Below, one piece after another: positions 25,716 to 36,963 of a stretch of 41,239 bases of DNA. Position 1 is the stretch's first letter, and each line of letters starts with the position of its first letter. The stretch spans positions 1-41,239 of IMG/VR virus record IMGVR_UViG_3300032322_001625; one strand, written 5' to 3'. Position numbers and translations under genes: made by a program. The notes beneath the pieces were generated by a model. The model was not told the origin of the DNA. It searched no databases and saw only the letters and a list, made by a program, of their open reading frames with translations. The DNA is from a virus.

Positions 25716-25744
25716 TTGACTCTGTCATGCCCCTGACGTAGACT
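25716..25744 (+). promoter_or_regulatory. Sigma70-type promoter P2 (TTGACT-17-TAGACT)
   Basis: TTGACT at 25716-25721, 17-base spacer, TAGACT at 25739-25744. It is clearly related to P1 (shared CTTGAC, CTG.CATG in the spacer, GTAGACTTG at the -10). The expected start is near 25751. It lies in the only intergenic gap of the rightward cluster and gives the AAA+/VWA pair its own promoter. Confidence 0.8.
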
Positions 25745-25805: not shown

Positions 25806-27287
25806 ATGCCGTTCATCCCGACGCAGTACCCGCTTGGCACCGTGTTCGCCACTGGCCGCCGCATCAAGCTCGATGGGCGCAAGAAGCTGGGCCTCGCCGC
25901 CCCTGACGCTACGCGGGCCGCGCTGTTCGCCTCATCCTACCGGGGCGAGAAGACCGCCGTGATCCCGACGAACATCAACATCCGGGTCTTCGACGGGGAC
26001 TGCTGCCTCGTCGTTGAAAGCACCAGCGAGCATTCGTCGGTGCTGTTCTTCTGGCGCGACGAGTCCGATGACAGCGTCATCCGCTGCGGTCTCGCAGAGA
26101 AGTGCCCGTCGAACCTGTTCGTGTCCATGCGGGGCGCTCCCCGCTTCGCTGGTGAGCCGCGCCTCGACGTGGACGCCGACGAGGCGGAGGCGCCGGTGGC
26201 TGGCAGCGTGAAGCTGCCGCCCCGCACGGTGGCCGCGACCTCGGTCGAGGAGGCGCTGGAGACCCTGCGCTCGGCGCTCCAGCCGAAGGCCACGGTGGAC
26301 GAGGATCTGGTGCGCTCGCTGGTCGACGCTGCCGTGAAGCCGCTGCGGGACGAGATCGAGCGGCTCTCGGAACCGGGAGCCGTGAAGGTCCGCGCTCGGG
26401 CCGCGGTTGCCCGTGCCGTTGCCACCGGCAGCAGCCCGATCTTGACTGCACTGGCGAGCCGCTACTCGCTGGGGCAGGACGCCCCCGCCATCGCGCTGCT
26501 GGCCGCGCCGCCGTCCCTCGGCAAGACGTACTCGATCCGCCAGTTCGCGGAGAGCTACGACCTGTTCTTGGAGCATGGCTGCAGCGAGGACATCGAAGAG
26601 ATCGCCACGCTGCTCGGTGGCCCCGTGCCGGATGGCGACGGTGGGTTCATCACCGTCGACGGTGTCCTGACACAGGCGGTGCGGGCGGCATCGGAGGGGC
26701 AGAAGGTCATGCTCCTGCTCGACGAAGTCCTGCGCTGGGGCGAGGCAGTGCAGGAGTGGTTCCTCCCCTTCGCGACCGGCGTGAAGACGGCAGCGGGGCG
26801 GAAGTACCGTCTCCGCACCCGGCGTGTCATCGACGGGGCGCTGGAGGTGCTGGAGTGTGACGCGGAGAACCTGCATCTGGTCGCCGCTGCCAACCTCGGG
26901 GCGCGTCAGCCGCAGGATGCGTTCTGGTCCCGCTTCGATGTGGTCCGGTTCGGGTTCGACGCCGCGACGGTGCAGGGTGTCGCCACGGCAGTCGCCTCCA
27001 GCTACGGCATCAAGGACACCCCGAAGCTGGCCCTCAACTTCACCAAGGCACTCACGGCAACCCGCCGCGCTGTGTCGGAGGGGCATCTCCGCTACCCGCT
27101 CGACGTGCGAGTGCTGGAGCGGGCCTGTCAGCTGGCCTCGGGTGACACAGCGAAGGACGTGCTGACCTACCTCGCCACCCGCGTCTCCGACGTGTGCGCT
27201 CACTGGTCCGTCGATCTGGGCGAGACCGATCCCGCCTCGACCACTGCGGTCGAAGCGGTCACCAAGATCCTCACGGAGGGCATCTAA
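25806..27287 (+). CDS. MoxR-type AAA+ ATPase
   Basis: Encodes 493 residues from the ATG at 25806, with GGAGG 7 bases upstream. The N-terminal 140 residues are beta-rich and unassigned, then a helical linker (about 145-205). The ATPase core has Walker A APPSLGKT at 234-241 (Ala instead of the first Gly), Walker B VMLLLDEV at 301-308, sensor 1 AAANLG at 360-365 and an arginine-finger region FWSRFD at 373-378. This order is that of MoxR/dynein-type ATPases (as in CobS, NorQ and MoxR), which remodel partners together with a VWA protein. The next gene, 2 bases on, encodes such a VWA protein. Partnership is strongly suggested by the pairing; the target is unknown. Confidence 0.85.
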   Translation: MPFIPTQYPLGTVFATGRRIKLDGRKKLGLAAPDATRAALFASSYRGEKTAVIPTNINIRVFDGDCCLVVESTSEHSSVLFFWRDESDDSVIRCGLAEKCPSNLFVSMRGAPRFAGEPRLDVDADEAEAPVAGSVKLPPRTVAATSVEEALETLRSALQPKATVDEDLVRSLVDAAVKPLRDEIERLSEPGAVKVRARAAVARAVATGSSPILTALASRYSLGQDAPAIALLAAPPSLGKTYSIRQFAESYDLFLEHGCSEDIEEIATLLGGPVPDGDGGFITVDGVLTQAVRAASEGQKVMLLLDEVLRWGEAVQEWFLPFATGVKTAAGRKYRLRTRRVIDGALEVLECDAENLHLVAAANLGARQPQDAFWSRFDVVRFGFDAATVQGVATAVASSYGIKDTPKLALNFTKALTATRRAVSEGHLRYPLDVRVLERACQLASGDTAKDVLTYLATRVSDVCAHWSVDLGETDPASTTAVEAVTKILTEGI

Positions 27288-27289
27288 CC

Positions 27290-28969
27290 ATGTCGACCAC
27301 TCTCTCTCCCGCCACCGCTCCTGCCACCACTCCTGCCCCCGCCCCGATGGCCACGCCGGTCGCCACCCCGCACACCATCGGCTACCCTGCTGCCAACACG
27401 GCTGTCCGCCGCTCCCTCGGGTCGGCGGGCACCCGCCAGCCCAAGGGGGGCGTCGTCACCCAGCTGGCGACGGAGAAGGGTGAAGCGGTGAACGTCGAGG
27501 TCGAGGTTGGCGGTGTCACCGGAACGTGGCGCTGGGACGCGAAGAAGAAGCGCCATGAGATCCGCTTGGGCGATCGGTTCATCGAGGCTCTGATTCCGGG
27601 GGCTGTCGGAACGCGCAGCGCCTCGGGGCGCGAGCGAGTCGGTGCCATCTTCGGGGAGCAGATCCTGCGCCATGAGGCATGGCATGGGCGCGTCACCGAC
27701 AAGGATCTCAAGGGCATCGCGGACTACGCTCGGATGCGCGTCGTGCCCTTCCTGCTGGTGAACCTGTTCGAAGACATGCGGCTGGAGGAACTGGCCCGCA
27801 AGATCGAGGGGCAGAACTTCAACTGGTGGCGGTTCATGCGGCGCGAGCATGTTCACTGCCCGCTCTCTGCCATCGTTGCCATGGTTCACTCGGAGTGGAG
27901 CGAGTCCTGCTCGTTCTCTCCGGCGGGCGTCGTCGGGTTCGACCCTGCCAAGGTGAAGGCAGCGCGAGACAAGGTGACGGAGTTCGCCAATCGGGTGAAG
28001 GCCGCGCCCAACACGAAGGCAGTGGTCGACATTGCCGCAGAGTGGGTCGACTACTGGCGGCACAGCGCCGACTTCCCGCTGGAGAATCACGGGACGGGCA
28101 ACAAGGGCGGCGTGCATGGCGGCGACGGCATCGGTGGGGAGTCGGATGGCAGTCTCACCAAGGCGCAGGAGGAGGCGAAGAAGCGGGACGCCGTCGTGCA
28201 TGGGCGCTCGATGGGCGCGAAGTGGGATGACACCAAGGACCGCACTCGGGTCCGGGTCGTGCCCTTCCTGACCAGCTTCGCGATGCATGGATCCCGATTC
28301 AACTCCCGCGATGCCGACGAAATGGCGAATGCCCTGCGTGGCATCATCGCCCGCTCGGCCTCGCCCCGCTCCGCCCGCGCCTCGACCAGCGGCTCCCGCC
28401 TGTACATCCCCGGCATCGCGGCGCAGCGGGATCAGGCCTTCCGCGCTCGGGGAAAGACGGGAGGCAAGCCGCACCTCACGATGCTGATCGACTACTCGGG
28501 CAGCATGAGCGGAGACTGGCACCAGCACGGGCTGCTCTTCACGGCGGCGCTGCTGCGACTGCTCCGGCAGGGTGTGGTGACGGGCAAGCTGTACGCCACG
28601 GGCGGCGGGTTCTTGGCAGAGATCCCGGCCTCGACGACCGACGCGCAGCTGGCCTCGACCTGTCCGTCGAAGTCCTGCGAGAACGTCCGCGACTCGCTGC
28701 TGCACCTGAGCCGCGAGTGTGAGGCGAGCGATGCGGTCGTGATCTACACCGACGGGGAGTTGACCGACGGGCACGTTGACGCCGGAGAGTGGCGGCGGCG
28801 CGGCGTGAACCTCCTCGGCGCGTGTGTCATCCCGGAGACGTGGCCGGAGTACATGCGGGAGGAGAAGACCACAGAGATGACGCGCCTCTTCGGGCGCTCG
28901 GTCCTCGGGGAGAACGGCAAGGTGCTGGCCAAGAAGCTGGCGCAGAAGCTTGGCGAAGCGATGCGCTGA
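27290..28969 (+). CDS. VWA protein with N-terminal HExxH metallopeptidase-like domain
   Basis: Encodes 559 residues from the ATG at 27290, 2 bases after the ATPase stop. After an Ala/Pro/Thr-rich tail (1-35), residues about 60-260 carry HEAWH at 128-132 (an exact HExxH) and NLFEDMRLE at 158-166, a pair of motifs seen in DUF2201/CobT-like metallopeptidase domains. The C-terminal VWA domain has the MIDAS start DYSGSMS at 401-407 and YTDGELTDG at 486-494. A Gly-rich linker lies between (about 268-290). Such VWA proteins act with MoxR ATPases. Whether the HExxH domain is a working protease is not shown. The operon ends at the terminator 62 bases downstream. Confidence 0.85.
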   Translation: MSTTLSPATAPATTPAPAPMATPVATPHTIGYPAANTAVRRSLGSAGTRQPKGGVVTQLATEKGEAVNVEVEVGGVTGTWRWDAKKKRHEIRLGDRFIEALIPGAVGTRSASGRERVGAIFGEQILRHEAWHGRVTDKDLKGIADYARMRVVPFLLVNLFEDMRLEELARKIEGQNFNWWRFMRREHVHCPLSAIVAMVHSEWSESCSFSPAGVVGFDPAKVKAARDKVTEFANRVKAAPNTKAVVDIAAEWVDYWRHSADFPLENHGTGNKGGVHGGDGIGGESDGSLTKAQEEAKKRDAVVHGRSMGAKWDDTKDRTRVRVVPFLTSFAMHGSRFNSRDADEMANALRGIIARSASPRSARASTSGSRLYIPGIAAQRDQAFRARGKTGGKPHLTMLIDYSGSMSGDWHQHGLLFTAALLRLLRQGVVTGKLYATGGGFLAEIPASTTDAQLASTCPSKSCENVRDSLLHLSRECEASDAVVIYTDGELTDGHVDAGEWRRRGVNLLGACVIPETWPEYMREEKTTEMTRLFGRSVLGENGKVLAKKLAQKLGEAMR

Positions 28970-29030
28970 GGTTACCTTGTGGGTGTGCGGCCTCTGGCGG
29001 GGCACACACTCTTGTGAGAGAGAGCAGAAG

Positions 29031-29063
29031 CCCCCGGCACCGAAAGGTGACCGGGGGTCTTTT
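29031..29063 (+). terminator. Convergent terminator between the rightward and early leftward operons
   Basis: CCCCCGGCACC, GAAA loop, GGTGACCGGGGG followed by TCTTTT. The stem is strong with one bulge. Read leftward the same hairpin is followed by a pyrimidine run, so it may act in both directions. An upstream smaller hairpin (GTGTGC at 28983-28988 with GCACAC at 29002-29007) may assist. Confidence 0.85.
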
Positions 29064-29068
29064 GCGTT

Positions 29069-33410: not shown

Positions 33411-35140
33411 TTGGGCAACATCGGGCCGTGCTTCTTCTCCATGTCTGCTATCGATGGAATTGACTGTGTCAACCGAAGCGTCCGGTAGTCCCACTGCACC
33501 GGGATGTCCAACACCGGGCCGTGCCGGTTCTTGTCGATGATCACCCATGTGTCCCCGAAGTTTCCGGTGCGCGTGTAGCGTGAGTGGTCGAGCAGCACCA
33601 CCTGATGGCTGTCGTTCTCAATACTACTGCTGCCCATCAACCCTTGGGCCTGAGGGCGTTGCTCTCGATCCTTACTCGTCTCGCGGTTGAACTGTGACAG
33701 GGCGATGCCTGCCACCCGGAGATCGTCGATCAGGCGGCGATACCCGTTGCTGGTCGCCTCAATCGCCTCCTCCTTCTTGCGGGCGTTCTCGACATGGGCC
33801 AGCTGCAGGTAGTCCATGATCACCATCTCGGCCCCTTCGTACTCGACCAGATACCGGATGGCAGAATCCACGTCGTGCCATCGGTGCAGCGGACGGCGGT
33901 TCACCAGCACATGCCCACCCATCGTGCGGCGGGTGTCGTCCATGAACGCTGCCGCCCGCTTGTAGGCGTCCCTGTCAAAGCTCTCGCCCTGCTCCAGCAT
34001 CGCCACCGTCTCGCCGCTCGCGATGGCCATGAGCGACGTGCCCAGATCAGAGCGCCCCATCTCCAGTGACACGAACGCCACGGTCTTGCCATAGGTGATG
34101 GCACTCGCGGCCACGTTCAGCGCTGTCTGGGTCTTCCCGTATCCCGGACGCCCACCGATGGTGATCATCCAGCCCTTGGCCAACCCCACGCCACCGCCGC
34201 GCCCTTTGCAGGACTCGTTCCACTTTGGCAGCATCGTGGGGATCGCCACCACCGGCTCCAGCTTCTCGGTGAGCATGACCTCCAGTGTGGCCCCGCTGAT
34301 CGAGTCGAAGGCGACGACCGGAGGAGACGCCCCGATGGGCATCGCCACCTCCAGTACCTCGGCCCACACCGTGGCCCATGTGTCCCCGCTCGCCTGCACC
34401 GCCTGATGCAGATCGCACAGGTCTTTGACCGGGCGACCCTTGTACTGGACGTTCTGCAGGATCTTCGCCTTGGGGAGATCGATGGCGACCTTGGCCACCA
34501 TCGTGGCCCCGCCCTCGTCTGGTTCCTGCCATGCGATGACATCCCGGCCAGCCAGCAGGGCTGCGAACTCGGGCTTCCACATGCTGGCCCCCGGCAGACC
34601 GACCGCACACACGCCACGCTGCCATGCGGCGTGACAGTCCGACTCCCCCTCCACGATCACCACCGGCCCCGGCAAGGACGCCAGCATCCAGATGCCATAC
34701 AGCGGGGTGCCCTCTCCGTCAGGCAACCAGAACGTGCCCTTCAGGGTGCGGCACTTCGTCCGGATGACCTCCCCGGTGGCAGAGTAGTAGGGCATCAGCA
34801 CCAGCTGATCGCCGTACCGCCCGACTCCGTCCTTCACCCCCGCCTTCACCAGCCCGTCGAGCGCGAGTCCCTTCCGCTCGGCGTACTGCTGCACCGTCAG
34901 CCCCTTGGCACTGGCAGGCGTCTCATCCGGGATCTCGACCCCCAGCGTCTCGGCCAGTGAGGAGAGCGGCTCGGTGAAGTCACACGCCATGCAGCCCCAC
35001 GCATGGTCCCCCAGCCACGCGCTGGCCTTGCTGTCCGCGTGACGCGGGCAGCGGAAGTGCAGCACCTTCCCGGACTTCTTGGTGCCCGTCTGCCGCAGCA
35101 GATGGGCGCGGAGGATGCCATGGGCGTCGAGGCTGTTCAT
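33392..35140 (-). CDS. Primase-helicase (T7 gp4-like)
   Basis: Encodes 582 residues from the ATG at 35140 (ATGA overlap with the initiator gene). A zinc-binding primase start has C31, H34, C50 and C53. The Toprim region has VVIVEGESDCH near 160-170 and QEPDEGG at 205-211. The C-terminal DnaB/RecA-like helicase has Walker A GGRPGYGKT at 329-337, Walker B MDYLQL at 442-447 and a later SQFNRE. The layout, zinc ribbon plus Toprim plus hexameric helicase, is that of T7 gp4. It unwinds the fork and lays primers. With no phage DNA polymerase found, host polymerase must extend them. Confidence 0.92.
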   Translation of the reverse strand: MNSLDAHGILRAHLLRQTGTKKSGKVLHFRCPRHADSKASAWLGDHAWGCMACDFTEPLSSLAETLGVEIPDETPASAKGLTVQQYAERKGLALDGLVKAGVKDGVGRYGDQLVLMPYYSATGEVIRTKCRTLKGTFWLPDGEGTPLYGIWMLASLPGPVVIVEGESDCHAAWQRGVCAVGLPGASMWKPEFAALLAGRDVIAWQEPDEGGATMVAKVAIDLPKAKILQNVQYKGRPVKDLCDLHQAVQASGDTWATVWAEVLEVAMPIGASPPVVAFDSISGATLEVMLTEKLEPVVAIPTMLPKWNESCKGRGGGVGLAKGWMITIGGRPGYGKTQTALNVAASAITYGKTVAFVSLEMGRSDLGTSLMAIASGETVAMLEQGESFDRDAYKRAAAFMDDTRRTMGGHVLVNRRPLHRWHDVDSAIRYLVEYEGAEMVIMDYLQLAHVENARKKEEAIEATSNGYRRLIDDLRVAGIALSQFNRETSKDREQRPQAQGLMGSSSIENDSHQVVLLDHSRYTRTGNFGDTWVIIDKNRHGPVLDIPVQWDYRTLRLTQSIPSIADMEKKHGPMLPKWKERN

Positions 35141-35853
35141 CGCCCCGCACCCGCCAGTCGGTCGAACTCGGCCACGTCCTGCCCTGACCGCGCCCACTCC
35201 TCCCGCGTTCGACCGTAGACCCGCGTCACTGGCGTGAACCCCTCCCATGCGCCATCGGCGTAGAACTTGGAGATCGTCTTGATGTACCTCGGTGTGGTGC
35301 CCTGCGCCGCCGCATACGCCGCGTACTCCCCTGCCGCGCCGATCAGCTGGGCGGGGGTCGCGCCTGACCGGAGCAGGACCATCACGGCCTTCAGCGCCGG
35401 AGGATAGAGATGGGGAACGTCGCGCTTCGGGAAGACCTTCCACACCTCAACCAACACCGCACTGGCGTCCTTCCTGATCTGCGCCTCCCTATCGTTGATC
35501 TTATCGTTAAGCCTTGGTCGTTTGGGTGACTCCAGTGTCACCCCTCCCCCGACTCCAGTGTCACCCCCCGGTGACTCCAGTGTCACCCCCTGCTGCAGGA
35601 TGATCTCGTAGATCGAGGTCTTGCCGGGGCGCTCCAGCTTCCGCAGGTAGCCCCGTTCGATCAGGGCGGGGAGCGCCCGCTGCACGCTCCGTTCGTTCAG
35701 GTTCGCGGCTTTCGCCATCGTGGCCACGCTGGCCCACACGTTGCCGCCCAGCTTGTTGGCGAACGTGCCGATGGCACACAACACGCGGAGATGCGCGTCG
35801 GTGACCGCTGCGTCAGCAACCGCAGCGGCGGGGATGATGGACAGGTGCGGCAT
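35137..35853 (-). CDS. Replication initiator-like protein containing the origin
   Basis: Encodes 238 residues. Residues about 15-90 form a winged helix (LRVLCAIGTFANKLGGNVWA then TMAKAANLNERSVQRALPAL), like DnaT/O-type initiators. Residues about 90-115 repeat GVTLESP because of the iterons in the DNA. The C-terminal half is helical (WKVFPKRDVPHLYPPALKAV) and may bind the helicase. It is overlapped by the primase-helicase gene. Like lambda O it carries the origin repeats inside its own gene; that it binds them is inference. Confidence 0.8.
   Translation of the reverse strand: MPHLSIIPAAAVADAAVTDAHLRVLCAIGTFANKLGGNVWASVATMAKAANLNERSVQRALPALIERGYLRKLERPGKTSIYEIILQQGVTLESPGGDTGVGGGVTLESPKRPRLNDKINDREAQIRKDASAVLVEVWKVFPKRDVPHLYPPALKAVMVLLRSGATPAQLIGAAGEYAAYAAAQGTTPRYIKTISKFYADGAWEGFTPVTRVYGRTREEWARSGQDVAEFDRLAGAGR
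35490..35589. repeat. Three iterons and an AT-richer segment: candidate replication origin
   Basis: GACTCCAGTGTCACCCC occurs exactly at 35528-35544, 35551-35567 and 35573-35589, spaced 23 and 22 bases, about two helical turns. Copies 1 and 3 sit in a GTGAC-N6-GTCAC dyad. Beside them, 35490-35522 is AT-richer and has TATCGTT twice (35490-35496 and 35502-35508). Iterons with a neighbouring melting region inside an initiator gene is the lambda ori layout. Confidence 0.8.
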
Positions 35854-35870: not shown

Positions 35871-36125
35871 TTACTTCCGTCGGCGCGAATGCGCTCCTTG
35901 ATTCCCGCCGCGCCCTCGGAGATCCACCCCGGCCCGCTTGAGCAGGGAGTGTACCGCCTGATAGGTGACGCCCATGCGGGTGGCCACGTCGCGCAGGGAC
36001 AGCCCCTTGTCGACGTACAGCATCTTGGCCACGTCCCGCTTCTCGTCGTTCGGCTGGTTGCCGGTGTGCGGGAAGAAGTAGTACCGCTCCGCGACCGGCT
36101 GCTCGTCAGGCTTCTTCACTGGCAT
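35871..36125 (-). CDS. HTH DNA-binding protein
   Basis: Encodes 84 residues from the ATG at 36125, with GAGGAGG 6 bases upstream. A C-terminal helix-turn-helix (LSLRDVATRMGVTYQAVHSL) lies at about residues 41-60, followed by a basic tail. The N-terminus is polar with YYFFPHTGNQ. It overlaps the nuclease gene by 20 bases. Likely a regulator of the operon or of host genes; the target is unknown. Confidence 0.75.
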   Translation of the reverse strand: MPVKKPDEQPVAERYYFFPHTGNQPNDEKRDVAKMLYVDKGLSLRDVATRMGVTYQAVHSLLKRAGVDLRGRGGNQGAHSRRRK

Positions 36126-36963
36126 GGGAGCCTCCTCCCCACTGAGGGCAGAACGGGGCGACCTCACAGTAATGGGCGCACCGCTTGTACTCGCCTTCCC
36201 GCTTCTCGACGACGTAGCCAGCGGGCACATCCCCCTCGTCGGGGATGTTGTCCGTGACCTTCAGGGCACGGGCGGCTCCCGGCTTCTTGATGGCAAAGGT
36301 CGTGCCATCGTACCACCGATCCTCGTCGGTGCAGTCCACCCGACCTCCCAGCGCCGCGTGCTGGTGCAGCGCCACCCGCTCCTCGATGTACTGCTCTGTC
36401 TCCTCCATCGTCCACACCGGCACGACGATCGTCTGGATGGCAGCGACCGGGTAGTCCGACTTGCGCTGGGCGTCCGTCTTTCGCCAGTCCCGGAAGACGG
36501 CCACGATCTCCAGTTCGCGGATGTCATAGCCGTTCTTGACAGCGAGCCAGCGCAAGATGTTGAGTTGCTGGGTCCATCGGTCGTTGCCGTGCCGCTTGTA
36601 GACCGTGGTCACCTTGTAGTCAGTGATCTTCCCGGTGGTCAGGTCCATGACATCGAACTGGCCTGACAGGATCCACCCGGACACGGCGAAGAACAGCCGC
36701 TTCTCCGCGATGACCATCTCGTTCTCGTCGTTGGCGGCTCGCTCCAGTACGGAGTGGACCCCCTGCCCCAGCAGCGACCAGATGCGCTCGCTGACATCGA
36801 TCGTGATGTCATCCTTGTGCTTGCGCTGGAGGCGCACGATCTGCGGGGCGTCGATCAGCTTGGTCACGCTGATGTCCCCGCCTCCACGGTAGGGGTCGTT
36901 CTTCACGGCTTCCACGATGCTCTGTGGAAGACCGTGAATGTTGGTGAACGTCGGGCCGGTCAT
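36106..36963 (-). CDS. PD-(D/E)XK nuclease (RecB/Cas4-like)
   Basis: Encodes 285 residues. The nuclease core has LGQGVH near 65-70, an EKRL at 87-90, GQFD at 101-104, TDYK at 114-117 and QQLN at 132-135: the H...D...DxK...Q order of RecB-family nucleases. The C-terminus has CAHYCEVAPFC, and with an earlier DCTDE Cys this gives four Cys as in Fe-S cluster forms (Cas4, AddB). It could process DNA ends for recombination or replication. The gene lies between two small unknown genes and the HTH gene in the replication operon. Confidence 0.88.
   Translation of the reverse strand: MTGPTFTNIHGLPQSIVEAVKNDPYRGGGDISVTKLIDAPQIVRLQRKHKDDITIDVSERIWSLLGQGVHSVLERAANDENEMVIAEKRLFFAVSGWILSGQFDVMDLTTGKITDYKVTTVYKRHGNDRWTQQLNILRWLAVKNGYDIRELEIVAVFRDWRKTDAQRKSDYPVAAIQTIVVPVWTMEETEQYIEERVALHQHAALGGRVDCTDEDRWYDGTTFAIKKPGAARALKVTDNIPDEGDVPAGYVVEKREGEYKRCAHYCEVAPFCPQWGGGSHASEEA

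Follow-up and report, generated by a model that had tools for sequence, protein, structure and literature searches.

A phage gene pair of a MoxR-type ATPase and a VWA protein with a conserved putative zincin site

In phages, 'cobST' genes are commonly regarded as auxiliary metabolic genes for vitamin B12. The 41,239 bases of an IMG/VR virus record analysed here (the window) raise the question whether such a label suits a pair of neighbouring genes, encoding an AAA+ ATPase and a VWA protein with an HExxH motif, or whether the two proteins act on other proteins instead. A sequence-only reading of the window had described them as a MoxR-type ATPase and a VWA protein fused to a metallopeptidase-like domain, and had regarded a phage machine of this kind as new. 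The description is backed by conservation, structure prediction and co-occurrence of the partners; the novelty had to be given up. The architecture is already known from jumbo phages, in which Iyer et al. 2021 (PMC7824862) reported a MoxR-vWA-metallopeptidase pair (ASV44729.1/ASV44728.2), and under the names cobS/cobT or 'porphyrin biosynthesis' from many phages and plasmids. The window pair is a divergent addition to this widespread, already known phage pair.

The gene pair and its predicted proteins

Both open reading frames and the two motifs of the VWA protein lie where they had been placed before (Table 1). The ATPase stop codon and the ATG of the VWA gene are separated by a gap of 2 nt, and therefore translational coupling is suggested. 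The pair had been credited with its own promoter and terminator. A promoter-like site was indeed found upstream, once compared with 0.1 times expected on average in shuffles. The downstream hairpin is strong (folding energy -29.8 kcal/mol, z -6.0), but it is missing from the list of the consensus terminator scan because its T run is short.

Table 1. Features of the ATPase/VWA locus in the window
Feature	Position	Strand	Remarks
Sigma70-type promoter-like site, TTGACT-17-TAGACT	25716..25744	+	62 nt upstream of the ATPase start
MoxR/NorQ/CbbQ-type AAA+ ATPase (by profile and predicted fold)	25806..27287	+	ATG 25806, stop 27287; 493 aa
Walker A APPSLGKT (aa 234-241)	26505..26528	+	clade variant [AST]PPSxGK[ST]
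Walker B Asp-Glu (D306, E307)	26721..26726	+	invariant in 25 ATPases
VWA protein with N-terminal zincin-like metallopeptidase domain (putative)	27290..28969	+	ATG 27290, stop 28969; 559 aa
N-terminal domain (aa 58-262)	27461..28075	+	three strands and helices with HExxH and NxFEDxRxE; AlphaFold2
HEAWH (aa 128-132)	27671..27685	+	putative zinc ligands H128, H132; putative catalytic E129
NLFEDMRLE (aa 158-166)	27761..27787	+	putative third zinc ligand E161
MIDAS motif DYSGSM (aa 401-406) of the VWA domain	28490..28507	+	alignment
TDG (aa 487-489), downstream MIDAS residues of the VWA domain	28748..28756	+	alignment
Terminator-like hairpin, TCTTTT on its 3' side	29025..29064	+	downstream of the ATPase/VWA pair

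Among the genes of the window are those for terminase, portal, head and primase-helicase; further to the right follow genes for an exonuclease and for replication initiation. The plus-strand pair is flanked by the packaging and replication blocks, which both run on the minus strand, and is thereby directed opposite to the terminase and also to the helicase. The replication-initiation-like protein (phrog_270) is encoded at 35140-35853 (-) and the exonuclease (phrog_2139), which also weakly matched a CRISPR/Cas-associated family, at 36109-36963 (-).

Profile searches with the ATPase matched Midasin, CbbQ and NorQ, and Foldseek with its model, which is confident from about residue 210, returned NorQ of NorQ-NorD complexes and CbbQ as best matches; the N-terminal ~144 residues are modelled with low confidence and are variable. 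Library matches were weak (PF00004, E 0.016; the phrog_249 'porphyrin biosynthesis' family, E 0.024). By profile and predicted fold the protein is a MoxR-type AAA+ ATPase of the NorQ/CbbQ group. The Walker A motif, previously noted as divergent, does read APPSLGKT, but this is a trait of the whole clade and the GK[ST] core is retained. N363, R376 and R435 are intact alongside the Walker B residues, and the alignment of relatives shows Walker B, sensor 1, Arg finger and sensor 2 all kept. We considered the unusual Walker A as a mark of a dead ATPase and rejected this: GK[ST] is still there, as are the other catalytic residues.

The VWA protein was far harder to place. Nothing useful was found in Pfam, NCBIfam, PADLOC, PHROGs, PDB sequences, the INPHARED tblastn search or single-protein viral scans, and its best PDB profile match, Midasin, was weak (E 0.019); the window pair has diverged too far to be picked up by Pfam, PHROGs or an INPHARED tblastn search. 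Membership in a defence system was considered and rejected, as PADLOC gave no match. The MIDAS residues D401, S403, S405, T487 and D488 are invariant in the alignment of 27 full-length members. From an input of 27 sequences AlphaFold2 gave a model of the N-terminal domain with pLDDT 90.6 and pTM 0.87, in which HExxH lies on one long helix and E161 on a second long helix, next to three strands. A fold search of BFVD returned matches including phage VWFA/CobT proteins (prob 1.00), and none of the PDB folds matched significantly; SprT (6mdw), MMP-11 and CapP were partial, non-significant hits.

Conservation of the putative zinc site and of the partner

Relatives were collected by scanning 2.9 million viral contigs with a degenerate DNA pattern for N-x-F-E-D-x-R-x-E, which yielded 115 contigs. 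The second motif was thus the scan criterion and its invariance is partly given by construction, while HExxH lies outside the pattern and its presence is an independent test. Most of the scan ORFs had HExxH about 20-45 residues upstream of the second motif, and those of sufficient length usually had a DxSGSM VWA motif downstream. With phmmer, the window VWA protein was tied to more than 50 scan ORFs, down to E 1.8e-57 and at about 22-30% identity.

All 59 non-redundant members that reach the region (60 aligned) have H128, E129 and H132, a result repeated in a separate alignment, and E161, which belongs to the scan criterion, is kept in 60/60. In the full-length members the HExxH residues are likewise invariant (27/27), at a mean column identity of 29%. 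Because H128, E129 and H132 are invariant in all 27 of these members of 21-30% identity, the two motifs are, judged from the alignments, not a product of chance, and the putative zinc ligands around residues 128-166 appear conserved. We know of no member for which peptidase activity or zinc has been demonstrated.

The scan also returned short ORFs (~214-235 aa) with N[LIM]FEDPRLE, which we take to be of a 2OG-Fe oxygenase-type family and discarded as unrelated. They lack HExxH, except for one misplaced HEVYH, and served as an informal negative control for this motif. L022, L024, L055 (incomplete), L056, L080 and L094 are such phage proteins with N[LI]FEDPRLE, in which the motif is a coincidence.

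The partner is conserved as well. In 45/45 loci of the window clade where an ATPase was found it is adjacent, on the same strand and at a gap of at most 271 nt, and in 40 of them it lies upstream of the VWA gene; each of the nine loci without an ATPase is cut short, with less than 450 nt of upstream DNA. Variation of HExxH or regular absence of the ATPase had been named as signs against the proposal, and neither was seen in the clade; one remote homologue, in Pseudomonas phage nickie, has lost the HExxH motif.

Relatives with HExxH were also found in metagenome-assembled genomes (MAGs) and one single-cell genome (L119-L128), with the source labels Verrucomicrobia, Akkermansia, Sulfurimonas, Agitococcus and Mucispirillum. 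These may be prophages or contaminating phage contigs.

Comparison with CobS/CobT and other known pairs

Liu et al. 2021 (PMC8651126) called such pairs of archaeal tailed viruses and other phages cobST, and considered that cyanophage cobT had been mistakenly annotated as a peptidase. In their proposal the viral CobS and CobT borrow the CobN of the host to insert cobalt into the corrin ring, so that more B12 is available for nucleotide synthesis. Divergent relatives indeed match Pfam CobT_C (E 3e-41) and CobT (1e-8), ATPase relatives match phrog_249 'porphyrin biosynthesis', and relatives in SSU5, ICP2, Rhizobium phages and Pseudomonas phage nickie are annotated as 'cobT' or porphyrin biosynthesis. 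Against this, 0/27 members of the window clade match Pfam CobT or CobT_C at E 0.01, and the phage HExxH and NxFED are kept, whereas HExxH is absent from 30/30 cellular CobT proteins, drawn from the phylum of an Agitococcus MAG (G038, Pseudomonadota). In the alignment, 29/30 CobT proteins have Asp or Asn in place of the first His and the position of the catalytic Glu is variable, while the second His and the later Glu are each kept in 28/30. Cellular CobT, which works with CobN, shares with the phage protein the combination of AAA+ and VWA partners, a remote homology of the N-terminal domain and the Glu, Arg and Glu of the second motif, but not the N and D of NxFED. Thus, by sequence comparison, the phage proteins keep a complete putative zincin site of which CobT seems to hold only a remnant.

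CobN was found in 0/37 virus records and ribonucleotide reductase exceeded the cut-off in only 2/37, neither of them in the window clade; these counts are soft because many of the records are fragments, and a host CobN may still serve. A metabolic linkage through B12 and ribonucleotide reductase was rejected on the latter count. Since the putative zinc site of the phage pair is conserved, the comparison argues that the label 'cobalt chelatase CobS/CobT' is probably wrong for it, and we consider a cobaltochelatase role quite improbable. For the phage proteins tested, a set that lies outside the cyanophage sequences, the HExxH comparison points in the direction opposite to the view of Liu et al. 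An intact putative protease site in the phage proteins, lost in the 30 CobT proteins, could shift the viral pair from metabolism to protein remodelling.

Like the window pair, the 'cobST' pairs (SSU5, ICP2, RHph, CRP-810; Liu et al. 2021) consist of adjacent ATPase and VWA genes. HExxH is common to SSU5, ICP2, CRP-810 and RHph_Y2_11, and an NxxED motif is present in SSU5, CRP-810 and RHph. Unlike the window clade, they match a CobT query, and in most of them the VWA gene precedes that of the ATPase. The pair of the group 2.2 jumbo phages likewise consists of neighbouring genes for a MoxR AAA+ ATPase and a vWA protein with N-terminal metallopeptidase domain, a likeness in described architecture, and the window pair differs in that it lies in a 41-kb phage contig. 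NorQ/NorD and CbbQ/CbbO are the closest to the window ATPase in predicted fold and also have a VWA partner, but their targets differ from that of the window pair. To our knowledge, neither NorD nor CbbO has an HExxH peptidase domain.

Possible function and phase of action

On balance we think it probable that the pair is an ATP-driven, two-component protease or remodeller, a distant homologue of phage 'cobS/cobT' and not a cobaltochelatase. From fold and sequence, the ATPase would assemble as a NorQ/CbbQ-type MoxR AAA+ hexamer, on which the VWA domain may dock the partner protein via its MIDAS, as NorD docks on NorQ. Given the full conservation of the site, we infer that H128, H132 and E161 of the N-terminal domain hold zinc; E129 would be the catalytic base with which the domain could then cut or locally process a protein pulled by the ring. 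The target might be not the virion but a nucleoprotein or host complex of the early or replication phase, as the gene position faintly hints. Tentatively, and with clearly less confidence, this could be extended to the phage 'cobS/cobT' class as a whole, as an ATP-fuelled two-component metalloprotease of the replication phase that, for example, clears or dismantles DNA-bound or host protein complexes, with cellular CobT as its degenerate relative.

The proposed protease/remodeller has to be weighed against a role in virion assembly, which Iyer et al. 2021 (PMC7824862), taking ATV p618/p892 as the analogue, proposed for the group 2.2 jumbo phages: a chaperone and processing protease that remodels and cleaves structural proteins. 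Both virion proteins and the VWA protein p892 do interact with ATV p618, a MoxR protein (PMC4124505), and in three records of the window clade (G023, G025, G028) the pair lies on the terminase strand. In about 16/19 window-clade records with an identified terminase, however, it lies on the opposite strand; SSU5, ICP2, nickie and RHph_Y2_11 have it in the replication module near DNA ligase, primase or polymerase genes, and a relative is found on IncC plasmids, which make no virion. In halovirus Hardycor1, too, the pair belongs to a replication/accessory module (PMC7911831). Strand and replication-module position tip the balance slightly towards early expression and away from virion maturation, a role once suggested for the window pair, and we regard this role as unlikely. 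Relative to the phage exonuclease the pair is co-directional in seven window-clade records and opposite in four; a consistent operon context in the clade was therefore rejected, as orientation varies.

It is about equally doubtful that the two proteins only remodel, in the manner of NorQ/NorD, with an HExxH domain that serves to bind metal or substrate and makes no cuts. Cellular CobT retains one His and the Glu of the site and is nevertheless a chelatase subunit. In nickie, the 'cobT' homologue (L161, 5995-8079) beside a cobS-like gene has SEISK in place of HExxH and ES in place of the ED of the second motif, and the pairing with the ATPase is kept. As far as its sequence tells, this homologue shows the putative site decaying naturally while the pair persists, so peptidase activity would not be essential everywhere. 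A non-catalytic domain is, however, hard to reconcile with the fact that E129, the presumed catalytic base, is just as unchanging as the ligands across 59 divergent sequences.

The IncC plasmid pN18S1655 (L163, 2651-5809), a conjugative plasmid, encodes a VWA protein with HEAAH and NVLEDCRIE, neighboured by a DUF3150 gene and the ssb-bet-exo recombination genes. A query from the CobT-matching branch matched 1,904 PLSDB plasmid records.
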